From Streptomyces albofaciens JCM 4342 (GTDB lineage Bacteria > Actinomycetota > Actinomycetes > Streptomycetales > Streptomycetaceae), in the NCBI RefSeq assembly GCF_008634025.1, contig NZ_PDCM01000001.1:310001-374000 (forward strand): 64,000 bases of DNA, given 5' to 3'. Under the pieces are notes generated by a model. That model was not told the origin of the DNA. It did no database searches and saw only the letters and a program-made list of their open reading frames with translations. This document shows positions 32,300-40,311 of the stretch, piece by piece. A program made the position numbers and the translations under genes. Numbering within the stretch: the first letter of the stretch is position 1; each line of letters opens with the position of its first letter.

Positions 32300-32728
32300 C
32301 TAAAAAAAATCCCCCGCGTCGCTGATGTTTTGCACGATGCTCACCATGTCGGCATGGGCCGCCATGCAAAATGATTGGTCAGAGGCCTCTATGGCGGCGG
32401 CAGTCTCGCTGAACCTCCTGCCGCTGACTTGTTGTTCGGTGATCAGCCGTGTGGGGCAGATGAGCCAGTTTTTTCTTGAGGTGTCGAAAGTCCATTCGAT
32501 GTTCTTTGGGGGCGAGGTACAAATGGCGGCGATAATTTCCCTCTTTTTCTCTGTGCGTTCATGGTAGCGCCAGGCTGCATAGGGAACTTGAAGGTTCCCG
32601 CGTGAATCTCTTCCGCCTGAGACCTTGGACCATTCTAGAAGGCCCAGCGTTGAGACCCCCTGCAAGATTTCTTTCGATGTGATCACTGATCGACCGGAAG
32701 CGTGTTCATGTTCACCAGAGGGGGCCAT
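32300..32728 (-). CDS. Candidate immunity protein for the Rhs toxin
   Basis: 142 residues, family not recognised. The gene is visibly AT-richer than the window and ends in a run of eight T (GDFF, then TAG). GGAGG lies 5 bases before ATG 32728. Its first 17 bp overlap the 3' end of the toxin gene, which places it exactly where polymorphic-toxin immunity genes sit. The predicted product is soluble and cytosolic (no signal or TM segment), rich in Ser/Thr and charged residues. By position it should bind and block the C-terminal toxin domain of the Rhs protein (inference). Confidence 0.7.
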   Translation of the reverse strand: MAPSGEHEHASGRSVITSKEILQGVSTLGLLEWSKVSGGRDSRGNLQVPYAAWRYHERTEKKREIIAAICTSPPKNIEWTFDTSRKNWLICPTRLITEQQVSGRRFSETAAAIEASDQSFCMAAHADMVSIVQNISDAGDFF

Positions 32729-35700
32729 CGTAACCTCCGTCTTTCATGATTATTTTCTTTCCCGGGTTCGAGTGGCGCAATGCCCGCTTGAAGTCGCCCA
32801 GGGGGACGGGGTCGGTTCCAAGTTCCGGGTCGTACACGTACTTTCCGTCTGTGTATACGTCATGATAGATGAAGTTTTCGTGTCGAACTCCTTGGGTCCA
32901 GTTCTGTGGCACGGCGAACTCTTCCCTTGAAGGAGTCGTGAAGTTCACGATTTTCCCATGGCCTCCGGATCGTCGCAGAATGTACTCGGCAAGTTCGGAG
33001 CAATCGACGTTGCCACCCACAGGCGCAGACCTCATGGCCTCTATCGCTGGTTGGTGTGGCGGGTGATCCGGGTGCGGCGGTCGAAAGTCGTAGGTGCCTC
33101 GTCCTCCGCCCGTTGGGGTGCAAGGCATCAAGCCGAGCGGGTCGACCCAGGAACTCGGATTGTGCACGTACCCGACTGGGTCGGGGCCGGGCTCAAGCCC
33201 GAGGGGATCCTGGGACATGTAACGGCCAGAACCTGGGTCGTAGTAGCGATGAAAGTTGTAGTGAAGCAGGGATTCGGAGTCGAAGTACTGCCCCGGGAAG
33301 CGCAACGGCGTGTACGCCGTAGCGTCTGTATTCCAGGTGGTGGTACCCCAAAGGGTGGGGCGGGACCGCCACGCGACCTCTCCCGATTCGGATACCAACT
33401 CGGTCGGAGCGCCGACCAGGTCCGTAACGATGTTGAAGAAGCGCTCGTCAATAACCCGTTGAGAGGCAAAAGCCAGGTCGGTCGTAGTGAGTTTGCGCTC
33501 CGTTTGGGTCAGGGGGGTCAGGCCCTGGTGGTCCCAGGTGAGGGTTAGGGACTGGGGGGAGTCCGGAGTGGTGGTGGATTGTTCGGTGAGGGTGGGGCCG
33601 TCCCAGGTGAAGTGGGTGGATTCGACGGGGGTGGTGCCGTCGGGGGAGAGGCGGTGTTTGGCGGTGCGGCGGCCCAGGGGGTCGTAGGTGTAGCGCCATG
33701 TGGTGCCGTCGGGGGTGGTGACGGCGGTGAGGCGGTCTTCCGCGTTCCAGGTGTAGTGCCAGGTGTCCGGCTTGCGGGAGAGGCGGGTTTTCTGGCAGAG
33801 GGTTACGCGGCCCAGGGCGTCGTGTTCGTAGCGGATGGAGCCGGCGCGGGTGATGCGGGTGCCGGTGTAGGTGCGGGGGCCTTGGGCGGAAGCGCCGGCG
33901 TGTTCGGCGGGCCAGGTGGCGTGGGTCTGGTTGCCGGACTCGTCGTAGGCGTAGGTCTCCGACCAGTCGGCGGCGGTGACGGCTGTGACGCGGCCCGCGC
34001 GGTCGAGGTCGAAGGTGCGGTGGCCTCGGGCGGAGTCGTCGATGCCGGTGAGGTTGCCGTCGGGGCGATAGGTGTAGGTGCGGGAGAGGAGGGGGGCCGG
34101 GGGCTGGGGCGCCGTACCGGTGGTCGTGGCCCCCAGTGACTGGGCGGTCAGGCGGCCGGTGGGGTCCCAGGCCTGGGTGAGAGTGAGGGCGTCGGAGAGG
34201 TGGCGGGCGATTTCGCGGCCGGCGGCGTCGTGGTCGAAGGCGATCGGGTGGCCGGAGGCCGACATGTGGGTGCGGTTGCCGGCGGCGTCGTAGGTGTAGG
34301 TGGTGGTGGCGCCGGTGGGTGTGGTGCGGGACGTGCGGCGGCCGAGGACGTCGTAGGTGAGGGACAGCGTGCGGCCGTTGACGGTTTCGGTGAGCACGCG
34401 GCCGAGGGCGTCGCGGGTGTAGGTGACGGTCGCGTCGGGGTTGGTGGTGCGGAGGAGGCGACCGGCGGTGTCGTACTCGTAGGTGGTGACGAGGCCCGCG
34501 GCGTTCTTCTCGGCGAGCGCGCCGAGGGGGGTGTGGGTGTAGGTGGTGGTCTGGCCGAGTGCGTCCGTGCGGGTGGTCAGTTGGCCGGCGGCGTCGTGCG
34601 TGTAGGTGAGGACGCGGTCGTCGAAGTCGGTCTCGGAGGTCAGGCGGCCGGCGGAGTCGTAAGCATAGGTCCAGGTCAGGCCTTGTGGGTTGGTTACCTG
34701 GGTGAGGCGTAGTTCGGTGTCGTGGGTGAAGGTGTGGCGGGTGCCGTCCGGGTCGGTGCGGGCGGCGAGCAGGTCGAAGTGGGTGTATTCGAAGCGGGTG
34801 ACCTGACCGATGGCGTCGGTGTGGGAGGTGCGGTTGCCCTCGCCGTCGTACGTCCAGTGTTCGGCGGCCCCGGTCGGGTCGATGCGGGTGGCGAGCTGGC
34901 CTTCGACGGTCCAGACGAAGTGGGTGGTTTCGCCGAGGGGGTCGGTGATGGAGGTGATGCGGCCGAACGCGTCGCGCCGGTAGTGGGTGCGGGCGCCGAG
35001 CGGGTCGGTGGTGGAGAGCGGCAGGCCCGCTTCGTTGCAGTAGAGGCGGGTGGTGTTGCCGAGGGCGTCGGTGACGGAGGAGAGGTGGCCTCGGGTGTCG
35101 TACGCGTAGTGCGTGGTGGCGCCGGCGGGGTCGGTGGAAGAGGTGCGGTTGCCACCGAGGTCGTAGGTGTGGGTCCAGGTGGCACCGTCCGGGCCGGTCG
35201 TGGTCAGGGGCCGGCCACGGTCGTCGTACGTGGTCGTGGTGCGGCTGCCGTCGGGGAGGGTGATCTCCGTGGGGCGGCCTTCGTCGTCGTACGTGAAGAG
35301 GGTCGTGCGGCCGAGCGGATCGGTCACGGACAGCACGCGGTGCTTGGCGTCGCGGACCGTGCGGGTCGTGGCACCGGTCGGGTCGGTCGTGGCGACGATC
35401 TGGTGGCGGTCGTTGACGAGGTGGCGAGTGACCTGGTCGTGGGAGTTGTGGTGCAGGTTGGTGCGCAGGCCCGTGTCGGGGTCGGGGTCGCCCCAGGTGA
35501 AGTGCGCCCGTAGGTGTCCTTCGGTGCCGCTCTGCCAGATGCAGCGGTGCCGGTCGTCGTAGGCGTAGCTGTACGAGCTGTTGTTGGTGTCCGTCCAGGA
35601 GGTGATCCGGTCTGCGTCGTCGTAGGTGAAGCGGAGCGGTAGGCCGGTGGAGTTGGTGACCGTGGTGAGGTTGCCGGACTCGTCGTAGCCGTACCGGCGG

Positions 35701-37505
35701 ATGAGCTGGTCGCCGCCGTCGGGGGCCGCTCCCGCCAGGTGGAGGGCGGTGATGCGGCCCGCTTCGGTGGTGAGGAGGAGGCGGTAGCCCGCGCTGTGGG
35801 TGATGGCGGTGGGCGTGCCGGTTTCGTCGTAGTCGAAGGTGTGGCGGTTGCCGCGGCGGTCGGATATTTCGTCGAGTACGGCTGTGTCGTCGCTGTACGT
35901 GGTGAAGTACCAGCGCGTGCCGCCGGCCGGGTCGGTGAGGACGTAGTCGCCGTCCGGGGTGCGTTCGAGCGGGTGGCCCTCTCCCTCGACGGGCAGGGTG
36001 GGGACGCCGACGGCCGGGTGCGGGTAGGCGAGGAGGTCGCCCTCCTCGCCTATGAGGACCACGCCTTCGGCGTCGATCTCCAGGCGCTGGTCGACGGTGC
36101 TCATCCAGGTGGGCCCGAACCAGCGGCCCGTCCGGTAGGACGACTCGAACGTACGGGTGAAGGTGAGCGGGAAGCTGCCGGGCAGGGTGATGTCGGTCTG
36201 CGGCAGGATCATGCGGCCGGTGGCCATGTCGATCGGGTCGCTGCCGAAGGTCTTGCACCAGGCGCGGCGGGCGCGGTCGCGCAGGGTGCTCTTGCCGCCG
36301 TCCTTGAGGGCGGCGCGCGCGGTGTCCTTGGCGGCGCCTTTCGCGCCGGCCTTGAGGACCCCCTTGGCCAGGCCGCTTGTCCCCTTGGCCCCCACGAGGT
36401 TGACGATCAGTGAGCCGGCCGCGTCCGCCGGGTCGCTTCCCCAGCCCGTGCCCAGCAGGGCCTTGGGCAGCCGCTCGGGGTGCGCGACCGTGGTGCTGAG
36501 CCCCATGAGCGTCGTGGTCACGTTGGACGCGTACTGCCAGGGGTGGGTGATGTTGTACGGGTCGTACGGGTTGACCGTACGGACCAGCTTCACCGTTTCG
36601 GACGCGGCCCGGAGCGCGCCGCCTGCCAGGTGGGTCAGCTGGATGCCACCGGACACCACACCGTCCGACAGGTCGGAAAGGACCCGGTCGGTGAACCTGG
36701 GCTCCTTCGGAGCGTGGGCCAGCGCCTGGCTGATGGCGTGCTGGGCCCGCTCCGCGGCCTCGTCGCGCTGGTGGCGTGCGCTTTTGAGCAGTTCTTCGGC
36801 GGCCTTGCGCCCTTCGGCGCCGGGGTCGGTGAAGGCGCCCGGCTTCTGGGGCTTCTGGCCCGGATCGGAGTTGTTCTCCAGGGCGGAGTTGTACGCGTCC
36901 ACCTTGGCGTTGTACGAGTCGACCTGGGCCTTGTAGGCGTCAATGGCCTTCTTCGTGGCGTCCTGGGCGGCCTTGTACTTGTGGATGGCCGTCTCGGCCT
37001 TGCTCTGCGCCCAGGAAACCGTCTCTCCGTAGGCGTGCAGGGCCTTGCCGGCCGCCTCGCAGGCATCCGCCGCCTGCATCCACTGCTTCGGGTGGGCGTC
37101 GAACTTTTCGTGGAAGCTGTCCGCCGCCTTGCCCTCCCAGCCGCCCGAGTCCAGCTTGCGCAGGCCCTGGCCGACCCGTTCGAAGGCGGCGGAGAAGTCC
37201 TTGAGGTGCGAGGACGCTTCGTTGATTGCTCCGGCGTCGCCGTGGATCAGGTCCTTGGGGTTCTCGGACTCCCCCAGGTTGCGTTCGTCGACATGGGCTC
37301 CGAGGCTGTCGGCGAGCCCCTCGCCCGCGGACCGGACCTTGTCGGCCGCGCCGTCCGCGCCGAGCGTGTCCAGCGCGTCGGCGGTCTTGTCGGTGACGAA
37401 CTCGACGCCTTCGCCGAACTTCTCCGCGGCGCCGTCGATGATGTCGCCGCCCTTGTCGGCCAGCGAGTTGACGGTGTTCACCAGGCCGTCGAAAACGCCC
37501 CCCAT
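32712..37505 (-). CDS. Rhs polymorphic toxin: T7SS-signal, DUF6531, RHS repeats, papain-like toxin
   Basis: 1597 residues. The N terminus (1-260) has a helical T7SS-signal/WXG-like part (GGWEGKAADSFHEKFDAHPK near 120) and a long Lys/Ala coiled coil. DUF6531 follows (about 420-500, GSDPIDMATGRMILPQTDI), then about 40 YD/RHS repeats (about 560-1400) that should form the cocoon shell. The RHS core ends with RYYDPGSGRYMSQDPLGL and PLGLMPC. The last 135 residues differ in composition and contain VDCSELAEYIL (Cys1502), FIYHDVYTDG (His1548) and YVYDPELG (Asp1559), a likely papain-fold Cys-His-Asp triad (Tox-PL type). It is probably exported by a type VII-like route and acts on neighbours. The start overlaps the partner gene (TGATG). 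Confidence 0.87.
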   Translation of the reverse strand: MGGVFDGLVNTVNSLADKGGDIIDGAAEKFGEGVEFVTDKTADALDTLGADGAADKVRSAGEGLADSLGAHVDERNLGESENPKDLIHGDAGAINEASSHLKDFSAAFERVGQGLRKLDSGGWEGKAADSFHEKFDAHPKQWMQAADACEAAGKALHAYGETVSWAQSKAETAIHKYKAAQDATKKAIDAYKAQVDSYNAKVDAYNSALENNSDPGQKPQKPGAFTDPGAEGRKAAEELLKSARHQRDEAAERAQHAISQALAHAPKEPRFTDRVLSDLSDGVVSGGIQLTHLAGGALRAASETVKLVRTVNPYDPYNITHPWQYASNVTTTLMGLSTTVAHPERLPKALLGTGWGSDPADAAGSLIVNLVGAKGTSGLAKGVLKAGAKGAAKDTARAALKDGGKSTLRDRARRAWCKTFGSDPIDMATGRMILPQTDITLPGSFPLTFTRTFESSYRTGRWFGPTWMSTVDQRLEIDAEGVVLIGEEGDLLAYPHPAVGVPTLPVEGEGHPLERTPDGDYVLTDPAGGTRWYFTTYSDDTAVLDEISDRRGNRHTFDYDETGTPTAITHSAGYRLLLTTEAGRITALHLAGAAPDGGDQLIRRYGYDESGNLTTVTNSTGLPLRFTYDDADRITSWTDTNNSSYSYAYDDRHRCIWQSGTEGHLRAHFTWGDPDPDTGLRTNLHHNSHDQVTRHLVNDRHQIVATTDPTGATTRTVRDAKHRVLSVTDPLGRTTLFTYDDEGRPTEITLPDGSRTTTTYDDRGRPLTTTGPDGATWTHTYDLGGNRTSSTDPAGATTHYAYDTRGHLSSVTDALGNTTRLYCNEAGLPLSTTDPLGARTHYRRDAFGRITSITDPLGETTHFVWTVEGQLATRIDPTGAAEHWTYDGEGNRTSHTDAIGQVTRFEYTHFDLLAARTDPDGTRHTFTHDTELRLTQVTNPQGLTWTYAYDSAGRLTSETDFDDRVLTYTHDAAGQLTTRTDALGQTTTYTHTPLGALAEKNAAGLVTTYEYDTAGRLLRTTNPDATVTYTRDALGRVLTETVNGRTLSLTYDVLGRRTSRTTPTGATTTYTYDAAGNRTHMSASGHPIAFDHDAAGREIARHLSDALTLTQAWDPTGRLTAQSLGATTTGTAPQPPAPLLSRTYTYRPDGNLTGIDDSARGHRTFDLDRAGRVTAVTAADWSETYAYDESGNQTHATWPAEHAGASAQGPRTYTGTRITRAGSIRYEHDALGRVTLCQKTRLSRKPDTWHYTWNAEDRLTAVTTPDGTTWRYTYDPLGRRTAKHRLSPDGTTPVESTHFTWDGPTLTEQSTTTPDSPQSLTLTWDHQGLTPLTQTERKLTTTDLAFASQRVIDERFFNIVTDLVGAPTELVSESGEVAWRSRPTLWGTTTWNTDATAYTPLRFPGQYFDSESLLHYNFHRYYDPGSGRYMSQDPLGLEPGPDPVGYVHNPSSWVDPLGLMPCTPTGGGRGTYDFRPPHPDHPPHQPAIEAMRSAPVGGNVDCSELAEYILRRSGGHGKIVNFTTPSREEFAVPQNWTQGVRHENFIYHDVYTDGKYVYDPELGTDPVPLGDFKRALRHSNPGKKIIMKDGGYDGPLW

Positions 37506-38122
37506 CAGCCTTCACCCCCGGCGTCCTGTGCTTCCTGCGGCTTGCTCCTGCCGATGCCCGCCGCCCGGAAGGCCAGGTTGTGCTCGGCGTCACCGGCCCA
37601 GCGGGACGTGGACCAGTCCTCCTTCGTCTGCTCCCACGTCTGCCGCACCCGCTCCGCGGCAGCCTTCGAGTCGGCCGAGTTCGGGTTGTAGTCGGCGTCC
37701 CTCACCTGCGTGAGCGGGTTGTCGGAGAGAACCTGGCCCCAGGTCTTGTCCTTGAGCTCTTCGGCGGTCAGGGTCGGATTCCCCAGAGCCGCGTTGGACG
37801 CCACCTTCAGTTGGCCGGAAACGTATTGTTCCTGCTCGTGGTAAAGGCCGGCCGACAGGTCGAGGCGGCGGGCGAAGGAATTGGCTTCGTGCACCAGGGC
37901 CCGTACGCCCCAGGTCCAGCGCTCGCAGAAGGTCTCGAAAGTCGACGCCAGTTCGGCATGTCCGGCTTCCATTCCGGACAGTTGGATCTTCTCGAATCCG
38001 TGGCCGAGTTGTGCCTCGCTGTCGAAGCCCAGCTCCTTGAGTTCGGAGATGGTGTCGTTGATGCCTTTGCTGACCTGCTTGAGGGCGTCTTGGTCGAGCT
38101 TGTAGCCGTCGCCCGCGCTCAT
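37505..38122 (-). CDS. WXG/ESX-like helical partner of the Rhs toxin
   Basis: 205 residues, nearly all helical. ESX-like features are ERWTWGVRALVHEANSFA, two amphipathic helices (about 10-40 and 60-110) and a late W-x-x-S-R-W segment (EDWSTSRWAGDAEH). It is longer than the standard 100-residue WXG proteins and lacks a signal peptide. Encoded directly upstream of the toxin with a one-base overlap, it should act as a targeting partner or chaperone for type VII-like export (inference). The ATG at 38122 overlaps the stop of the SseB-like gene by 4 bases. Confidence 0.72.
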   Translation of the reverse strand: MSAGDGYKLDQDALKQVSKGINDTISELKELGFDSEAQLGHGFEKIQLSGMEAGHAELASTFETFCERWTWGVRALVHEANSFARRLDLSAGLYHEQEQYVSGQLKVASNAALGNPTLTAEELKDKTWGQVLSDNPLTQVRDADYNPNSADSKAAAERVRQTWEQTKEDWSTSRWAGDAEHNLAFRAAGIGRSKPQEAQDAGGEG

Positions 38123-38580
38123 ATCCGCTCACCGCCCGGCTGGGCGCCGGTGGCGGTGTCGCGCTGCGGTGCTGCGGCGCTCACCTCGGGAGCCTCGCCG
38201 TCCTCCTCGGTGCGGACGGCTACGGCGTCGGGCACGATGCCGGCGGCCGGCGGGAACAGCATGCCCTGCTCGCTGCCCGCGTCCAGGGCGACACCGGCCG
38301 GCCCCTCGATGGCCGGTATGACGACATCGAGCAGGCGGGCACCGAGGGCGGAGACGTACTGCCACTCGCTCTGCGGGGTGCTTCCTCTGGAGAGCGCGAA
38401 CCTGTTGAGGGCTTCCTCGTCCGTGAATGCGTACAGCCAGCGGATACCGCCCATTTCGGCGGACATGAGCCCATCGTTGTCGATGGGCACCAAGACGCTC
38501 GTACGGCGGAATTCCCCGACGAGTGCCGCCGGGTCGCCTTCGTACGCGTACATACTGGCAATTTCGTCGGTCAATGGCAT
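38119..38580 (-). CDS. SseB-like protein heading the Rhs toxin operon
   Basis: 153 residues. Residues about 10-110 (GDPAALVGEFRRTSVLVPID, then GIRWLYAFTDEEALNRF) match the SseB N-terminal-like domain, with an Ala/Pro-rich tail. The start is ATG 38580; an upstream frame to 38715 lacks homology. SseB-like genes often precede WXG-type and toxin genes in Streptomyces, where they may be adaptors; function is not established. It is the first of four overlapping genes, so the promoter should lie in 38581-38760. Confidence 0.75.
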   Translation of the reverse strand: MPLTDEIASMYAYEGDPAALVGEFRRTSVLVPIDNDGLMSAEMGGIRWLYAFTDEEALNRFALSRGSTPQSEWQYVSALGARLLDVVIPAIEGPAGVALDAGSEQGMLFPPAAGIVPDAVAVRTEEDGEAPEVSAAAPQRDTATGAQPGGERI

Positions 38581-38841: not shown

Positions 38842-40311
38842 TCAGTCGGGGAGGATGCCGGCTTTGCGGGCCTCGGTGAGCCAGGTGGGGAACTCGGTCA
38901 TGAGCTGCTGGTAGAGGTCCGCGTCGGCGACGGCGCGGGGGTCGCGGCCGGCGTGGAAGAAGCCCGCGTTGTCGATGACGCGCTTCTCCGGGACGGCCAG
39001 TTCGTCCAGCTTGCGGAGGAAGTCGAAGCCCTTGGCGTCCGGGTCGCCGAAGCCGACGAACTGCCAGAAGATGGGCAGCTTCGCGGCCTCGCAGAGGGCC
39101 TTCTCGGCGGCCGGCTTCGAGGTGGGGGCTCCGTCGGTCTGGAAGATGACGAAGGCCGGGTCGGTGGCGCCGGACTTCTCGTAGTGCTCGATGACGGCGT
39201 TGATGGCCCAGTGGTAGTTCGTGCGGCCCATGTGACCGAGGCCCGCGTGCAACTCCTCGATGCGGCCCTCGTAGTTGGCCAGATCCAGTTCGGCGGTGCC
39301 GTCGACGTCGGTGGAGAAGAAGACCACCGGCACGGTGCCGTCGTCGTCGAGGTTGGCGGACAGGCCGAGGGCCTGTTCGGCGAGGTGCTGGACCGTGCCG
39401 TCCTTGTAGTAGTTGCGCATCGAGCCGGAGCGGTCGAGTACGAGGTAGACGGCCGCGCGCTGAGTGGCCAGCCCCTGCTTTTCGAGGGAGACCCGGGCCG
39501 CCTTGTAGAGGCTGACGAGGCCGGGGGCCTGGGACTCGACCTTGGTGAGGGAGATGGCGGTCGCGGGGGCTTCAGGCACGGGTTCCGGTCGGGGGGCGGA
39601 TTCCGGCTGAGAGGAGGCGTCCGGCTGGGGCGTGGCTTCGGGCTGAAGCGTGTTCTCGGGCTGGGGCGTGGCTTCCGGCTTCGGCTCGGTCTTGGCCGCG
39701 GCATCCGGCTCCGCCTTGGTGACGGGGGCCGGCTCCGCCTTTGTGACCGGCGTCGGCTCCGCCTCGGGTTCCCGGGTTGGCTCCGCCTTGGCCGCGGCCT
39801 CAGGTTTGGCCGTGGCCTTCGGCTCCGCCTCGACTACGGGCTCCGGCTTGGTCACGGCCTCCGGCTTGGTCACGGCCTCCGGCTCCACCTTGCCCGCGGC
39901 CTCCACCTTGCCCGCGGCCTCCGGCTTGCCCGCAACCTCCGGCTCCGCCTCGACCACGGCCTCGACCTTGCCCGCGTCCCCAGCCTCGGCATCCGGCTCC
40001 GCCTTCCCCGGCGTCTTCGGGTTGTCGAACGCCTGGGAGACGAGGTCGGACGCCGAGTCCTCGGGGGCGGGGGCGGCGTCCGGGGTGGTGGCCTGGGTGG
40101 GGAGGGAGGGGGATGGGGTGTCGGTGGGGGCGGTGCGGGCGGTGGGGACGGCGGGGTCACGGGGGGCGGCGGGCTCCGGGGTGGCCTCTTCGCGGGCCTC
40201 CGGGATCGTGGCCGCTTCCGGCGTCCGCGTGCCGCTCGCCGCCTCGTTCGATTCCTCGCGGGCCGCCTTGGAGCGACCGAAAGCGTTGCGCAGCAGACTC
40301 CGAATGCCCAT
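38842..40311 (-). CDS. TerF-like VWA protein with Lys-Pro-Glu-Ala repeats
   Basis: 489 residues. Residues about 20-245 are low-complexity: acidic Pro/Ala/Glu/Lys repeats (KPEA, KVEA, TKAEP units), likely disordered. Residues about 260-489 form a von Willebrand A domain with MIDAS motif DRSGSM, MGRTNYHW (Thr) and FQTDGAPT (Asp), typical of the TerF/TerY C-terminal type. Relatives belong to tellurite-resistance/stress loci, but no other ter gene is seen here. It should bind Mg or Ca and work in protein assembly; no partner is evident. ATG 40311 has GAGAGG 8 bases upstream. Confidence 0.85.
   Translation of the reverse strand: MGIRSLLRNAFGRSKAAREESNEAASGTRTPEAATIPEAREEATPEPAAPRDPAVPTARTAPTDTPSPSLPTQATTPDAAPAPEDSASDLVSQAFDNPKTPGKAEPDAEAGDAGKVEAVVEAEPEVAGKPEAAGKVEAAGKVEPEAVTKPEAVTKPEPVVEAEPKATAKPEAAAKAEPTREPEAEPTPVTKAEPAPVTKAEPDAAAKTEPKPEATPQPENTLQPEATPQPDASSQPESAPRPEPVPEAPATAISLTKVESQAPGLVSLYKAARVSLEKQGLATQRAAVYLVLDRSGSMRNYYKDGTVQHLAEQALGLSANLDDDGTVPVVFFSTDVDGTAELDLANYEGRIEELHAGLGHMGRTNYHWAINAVIEHYEKSGATDPAFVIFQTDGAPTSKPAAEKALCEAAKLPIFWQFVGFGDPDAKGFDFLRKLDELAVPEKRVIDNAGFFHAGRDPRAVADADLYQQLMTEFPTWLTEARKAGILPD

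Follow-up and report, generated by a model that had tools for sequence, protein, structure and literature searches.

A compact operon of Streptomyces albofaciens JCM 4342, located in a window of 64,000 nucleotides (the whole stretch analysed; contig NZ_PDCM01000001.1, positions 310,001 to 374,000), encodes an Rhs polymorphic toxin of 1597 residues whose C-terminal tip, together with a 142-residue candidate immunity protein encoded behind it, represents a pair of families that are undescribed within the copies of Pfam, NCBIfam, PADLOC and PHROGs and the literature that we searched. This tip-immunity pair is the new part of the system, as polymorphic toxins are a known kind and the type VII secretion system (T7SS) route is already predicted for Rhs proteins. 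Neither the tip (approximately residues 1460-1597) nor the 142-aa protein gave a match reaching the cut-off in any of the four libraries, in agreement with the initial annotation of this DNA, which had described the latter as a linked immunity candidate without a catalogued family. We consider it fairly probable that the operon specifies a T7SS-delivered antibacterial Rhs toxin, with a protein-glutamine deamidase as its tip and a member of the uncatalogued immunity family neutralising it.

A candidate immunity gene accompanies the tip

A contig search with an alignment of 12 tip sequences yielded 30 loci (18 from Streptomyces and 12 from proteobacteria), and an open reading frame (ORF) of 125-226 aa lies behind the tip in all 30. 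Loss of the immunity gene from a locus that keeps the tip, the outcome initially set to refute the pairing, was thus never encountered. To relate these ORFs to each other, E-values for two immunity profiles were computed for 58 ORFs. The first profile, seeded with 16 proteins (that of the window and 15 others from Streptomyces; 15 of the 30 loci are seed members), matches 14 of the 15 non-seed immunity ORFs and misses only that of Morganella. The second, seeded with 10 proteobacterial proteins that are all among the 30 loci, matches the Morganella ORF (E=1.4e-20), one other non-seed proteobacterial ORF and all 18 Streptomyces ORFs, the weakest of them with E=0.007. Joined by the two profiles together, the immunity ORFs of all 30 loci form, as judged by profile similarity, one family, and the structure model of the 142-aa member is confident.

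The tip and immunity profiles each match their own gene alone among the 928 stop-to-stop segments of the window (E<=1). Of 392 genomes belonging to the genus, 16 contain the tip at E<=1e-3 (12 of these strongly, E<=1.4e-26) and 29 match the immunity profile. When 30 Streptomyces immunity loci were fetched, a full tip was present upstream in 12, a remnant in five (one only at E=0.005) and no tip in 13, and not one of the 12 full tips lacked an immunity gene. The 13 tip-less loci (L107, L108, L109, L112, L114, L115, L117, L119, L120, L121, L125, L126 and L127), some of which are partial or carry internal stops, would represent orphan immunity genes, the expected behaviour of a protective gene. 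In a Gilliamella cassette (L045:7983-8733) the catalytic cysteine is replaced while an open immunity ORF persists, which would fit its retention for protection. Distances among the tips correlate strongly with those among the immunity proteins, which diverge faster; mere co-inheritance would also give such a correlation.

Exchange of the cassette and its other carriers

The end of the Rhs shell (322 aa) is detected at E<=1e-60 in 293 of the 392 genomes, and exchange of the tip among homologues, initially suggested as a check, is borne out by the 30 best shell matches: 28 bear other tips behind shell ends that are 64-83% identical, and the same tip is present only in the window and in a relative from S. 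rimosus, which are also the only two with complete tip and immunity genes by profile. Counted per 20 residues, identity to four relatives with other tips is 16-17 up to residue 1417, 9-13 at 1418-1457, 7-9 at 1458-1477 and 0-6 thereafter; identity to the S. rimosus relative stays at 17-20 of 20 over the same region. GC content is 70% in the N-terminal part and shell, 58% in the tip and 53% in the immunity gene, the last being lower than in every one of 310 window blocks. Because GC at third codon positions likewise drops from 91% in the shell to 64% in the tip and 62% in the immunity gene, we read the tip and immunity gene, on these sequence grounds, as a foreign, replaceable cassette moving as one unit. 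One other locus of the 30, L092, retains a faint trace of the tip (E=0.003), with a partial immunity gene farther downstream. In the corresponding genome (G227; L092 and L099) a differently tipped Rhs gene is followed, about 1.4 kb past its shell end, by an immunity copy that has a weak tip remnant ahead of it, possibly an older cassette displaced by a newer one.

Homologous tips are, by sequence comparison, borne by Streptomyces T7SS-Rhs proteins, by proteobacterial CdiA-type hemagglutinins and by one VgrG locus. A query of the full database with the tip of a Serratia CdiA-type protein returned 46 matches, including five Streptomyces T7SS-Rhs proteins (E 4e-10 to 4e-13), and the hemagglutinin-repeat family PF13332 is present on 40 of the 41 non-Streptomyces proteins. 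Four proteobacterial carriers that were scanned contain hemagglutinin repeats with DUF637 (two), hemagglutinin repeats with PT-VENN (one) or PT-VENN alone (one, a shorter ORF), while several other proteobacterial copies are short orphan cassettes. In Morganella, the tip-bearing ORF is small and has a Pyocin_S match, and its locus also contains genes of the VgrG type and of DUF4123. Among the Streptomyces loci, L034 has a LamG-RHS carrier, and the tip region of L035 is similar to that of L034. A single Pseudomonas aeruginosa cluster of the tip represents 709 member sequences; the tip is nameless in the libraries searched although it is numerous in proteobacterial databases.

Operon layout and predicted delivery route

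The four genes all lie on the minus strand, in the order SseB-like, ESX-like, Rhs and 142-aa ORF, and neighbouring genes overlap by 4 nt (ATGA), 1 nt (TGATG) and 17 nt, with coordinates and overlaps exactly as first annotated (Table 1). The SseB-like ORF scores 31.3 bits against PF07179 (cut-off 21). The ATG of the 142-aa ORF sits within the final Rhs codons, and an alternative GTG start used by a gene prediction (128 aa) has no GGAGG ahead; the ORF is counted as coding because homologues occupy the same place in relatives. Immediately upstream of the operon, on the same strand, a TerF-type von Willebrand factor A protein (PF10138, E=2.5e-67) is encoded at 38842-40311.

Table 1. Features of the Rhs operon, in window positions
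Feature	Position	Strand	Evidence or remark
SseB-like protein, 153 aa	38119..38580	-	First operon gene, ATG at 38580; PF07179; kept upstream in relatives
ESX-like protein, 205 aa	37505..38122	-	Invariant WxWG; no Pfam match
Rhs polymorphic toxin, 1597 aa	32712..37505	-	ORF and domain matches
PF21725, putative T7SS secretion signal domain, residues 21-269, WEG at 123-125	36699..37445	-	E=3.8e-93
DUF6531, residues 423-494, start of RHS shell	36024..36239	-	Pfam
RHS-associated core end, residues 1385-1459, ...DPLGL	33129..33353	-	TIGR03696, E=4.5e-20; tips diverge behind it
Toxic tip, residues 1460-1597, predicted papain-like / glutamine-amidohydrolase-like fold	32715..33128	-	Model (pLDDT 88) and fold searches
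Cys1502 codon, predicted nucleophile, helix start	33000..33002	-	Tip alignment and model
His1548 codon, predicted catalytic	32862..32864	-	Tip alignment
Asp1559 codon (YDP), predicted catalytic	32829..32831	-	Tip alignment
GGAGG, Shine-Dalgarno-like, within the last tip codons, 5 nt before the immunity ATG	32734..32738	-
Immunity candidate, 142 aa, uncatalogued family	32300..32728	-	ORF; homologues at the same place

The Rhs protein had been described as a polymorphic toxin with a T7SS-type N terminus, and its domains agree with this: PF21725 with the WEG motif inside it is followed by DUF6531, by RHS repeats in 20 stretches and by the RHS core end. The genome's listed RHS-repeat matches, 14 in all, fall inside this protein, and the Pfam WXG100 family PF06013 stays below its cut-off. 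In an 11-row alignment of the 205-aa ESX-like protein that includes the protein itself (most rows being partial), WxWG does not vary and eight rows have a YxxxD/E 25 residues behind it, an arrangement that in our estimation resembles T7SS signals; the protein is probably a secretion partner or chaperone of the Rhs toxin. Ten of the 18 Streptomyces loci have SseB-like and ESX-like genes upstream, and we read the other eight as contig ends (four), truncated or orphan cassettes (two) and different carriers (two). In the relatives L021 and L025, one ORF has the T7SS signal and another the tip-bearing shell, as interrupted carriers or sequencing errors would give.

Two EccC genes of the ESX machinery exceed the cut-off in the genome, one on the same contig 1.8 Mb away and one on the other contig, compared with none in 14 control genomes, nine of which have weaker matches. 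A third gene resembling EccC, in a 1708-aa frame outside the window (G000:C1:2538406-2544375), scores below the cut-off; 3-4 kb from it, a 3076-aa frame holds a second PF21725 match, and these may belong to a separate ESX locus with a large substrate of its own. The initial annotation had held the delivery route to be undescribed, a view that we abandon: the route is already predicted because the N-terminal domain is the catalogued PF21725, related database proteins bear the name 'putative T7SS-secreted protein', and two papers connect T7SS with Rhs proteins (PMC11217815) and with toxins of Streptomyces and Amycolatopsis (PMC12691689). T7SS delivery of the Rhs protein, as predicted from its signal domain, is hence not new.

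Predicted activity of the tip and comparison with known systems

Cys1502, His1548 and Asp1559 are at the positions first assigned to them, and the tip model is papain-like as had been proposed, with Cys1502 at the start of a helix. In a 29-row tip alignment the histidine and aspartate are invariant and the cysteine is conserved in 28 rows, the residues being conserved in the order Cys-His-Asp. The nearest solved structures are protein glutaminase (PDB 8z3i, 2ksv; PF18626) and the N-terminal glutamine amidohydrolase NTAQ1 (PF09764), both glutamine amidohydrolases with Cys-His-Asp triads. They occupy Foldseek ranks 1-18 and VIA ranks 1-17 throughout, with moderate scores: the Foldseek probability is 0.91-1.00 (0.28 for the next other fold), with E-values of only 1e-3 to 2e-2. 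By sequence, neither PF18626 (best E=0.17) nor PF09764 exceeds its cut-off on the tip. At these moderate scores, the model points to a papain-like fold nearer to glutamine amidohydrolases than to peptidases, and the tip is probably a protein-glutamine deamidase.

We envisage that the Rhs protein would reach a cellular ESX machine by way of its N-terminal WXG-type domain and the ESX-like partner, and that the Rhs shell would enclose the tip until its release by self-cleavage at the DPxGL core, as is known from other Rhs proteins. In the target cell, the tip would most likely use Cys1502-His1548-Asp1559 to hydrolyse the glutamine side-chain amide of a target protein, and the 142-aa product of the overlapping gene downstream would shield the producer and its kin by binding the tip. 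If so, the tip would be an antibacterial counterpart of the deamidase toxins, which are known mainly to act on eukaryotic proteins, and its target is expected to be conserved across phyla. One family used by three unrelated delivery systems would, if true, therefore imply a target that Actinobacteria and Enterobacterales have in common. The full proposal, an undescribed antibacterial deamidase family with its own immunity family that is common to T7SS Rhs, CdiA-type and VgrG/type VI secretion system (T6SS) carriers and acts on such a target, is more tentative, and we rate its chances at somewhat under even. With confident models of a predicted enzyme of about 140 aa and of its 142-aa candidate inhibitor, and with one predicted catalytic cysteine, the pair is readily testable.

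A papain-like fold with Cys-His-Asp would also suit a cysteine protease working in the manner of Cpe1, with an essential target protein as its substrate and with operon and immunity unchanged, and the VIA list does contain 9l5u_B, titled 'Papain-like cysteine protease toxin/immunity pair', which we take to be Cpe1-Cpi1. Papain-like protease toxins with immunity are known on T6SS and contact-dependent growth inhibition (CDI) carriers (PMC12136450, in the portion relevant here), and we judge a protease to be an unlikely though serious alternative to the deamidase. A transglutaminase-type acyltransferase, cross-linking or polyaminating target glutamines, is improbable, as its structural scores are below those of the amidohydrolases and the matched chains have 360-700 aa versus about 140 aa for the tip. 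Slightly less probable still is a weapon directed at eukaryotic grazers or hosts, since the immunity ORF in 30/30 loci and the absence of a tip from 13/30 Streptomyces immunity loci are best explained by bacterial targets. An auto-processing peptidase, a role proposed for some Tox-PL1 domains (Zhang et al. 2012, PMC3482391, in the passages on that family), is very improbable for a domain that lies at the extreme C terminus, varies from one shell to the next and is found as well C-terminally on CdiA-type proteins and in the form of small cassettes.

The tip can be set beside several known systems. Tox-PL1 (PF15644, Gln_amidase) is likewise a toxin domain of the papain-like kind that Actinobacteria bear on WXG and RHS carriers, and the relevant part of PMC3482391 lists the papain-like toxins Tox-PL1, PL2, PL3, C39 and OTU among others, several of them on such carriers. 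The tip matches none of those listed there by Pfam, through which alone Tox-PL2 and PL3 were compared, and hhalign against 17 PF15644 sequences gave a probability of 0.4%; the tip has DC-H-YDP in place of the NC-H-DxQ signature given for Tox-PL1 in the same source, DxQ being present in most PF15644 rows. With amidohydrolases as the nearest folds, we no longer retain the initial Tox-PL assignment. Outside the window, at G000:C2:2998580-3000286 and G000:C1:1552216-1553925, the genome has two giant frames (2174 and 2287 aa) with two PF15644 domains each. Protein glutaminase and NTAQ1 share the small papain-like core, but the tip is outside their sequence families and belongs to a toxin protein accompanied by an immunity gene. 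The RHS/T7SS polymorphic toxins of Actinobacteria, which combine PF21725, DUF6531 and RHS and are outlined in part of PMC3482391, are alike in WXG/T7SS N terminus, RHS shell, variable tip and adjacent immunity gene, whereas the tip and immunity families found here are under the cut-off in four libraries. Cpe1-Cpi1, in the account in part of PMC12136450, is likewise a papain-like toxin with immunity across T6SS and CDI carriers, to which the present tip family adds a predicted T7SS route. CdiA/CdiI systems share homologous tips on hemagglutinin-repeat proteins, with a homologous immunity ORF in the proteobacterial loci, while the carrier in the window is an Rhs protein with a T7SS signal in a Gram-positive bacterium.

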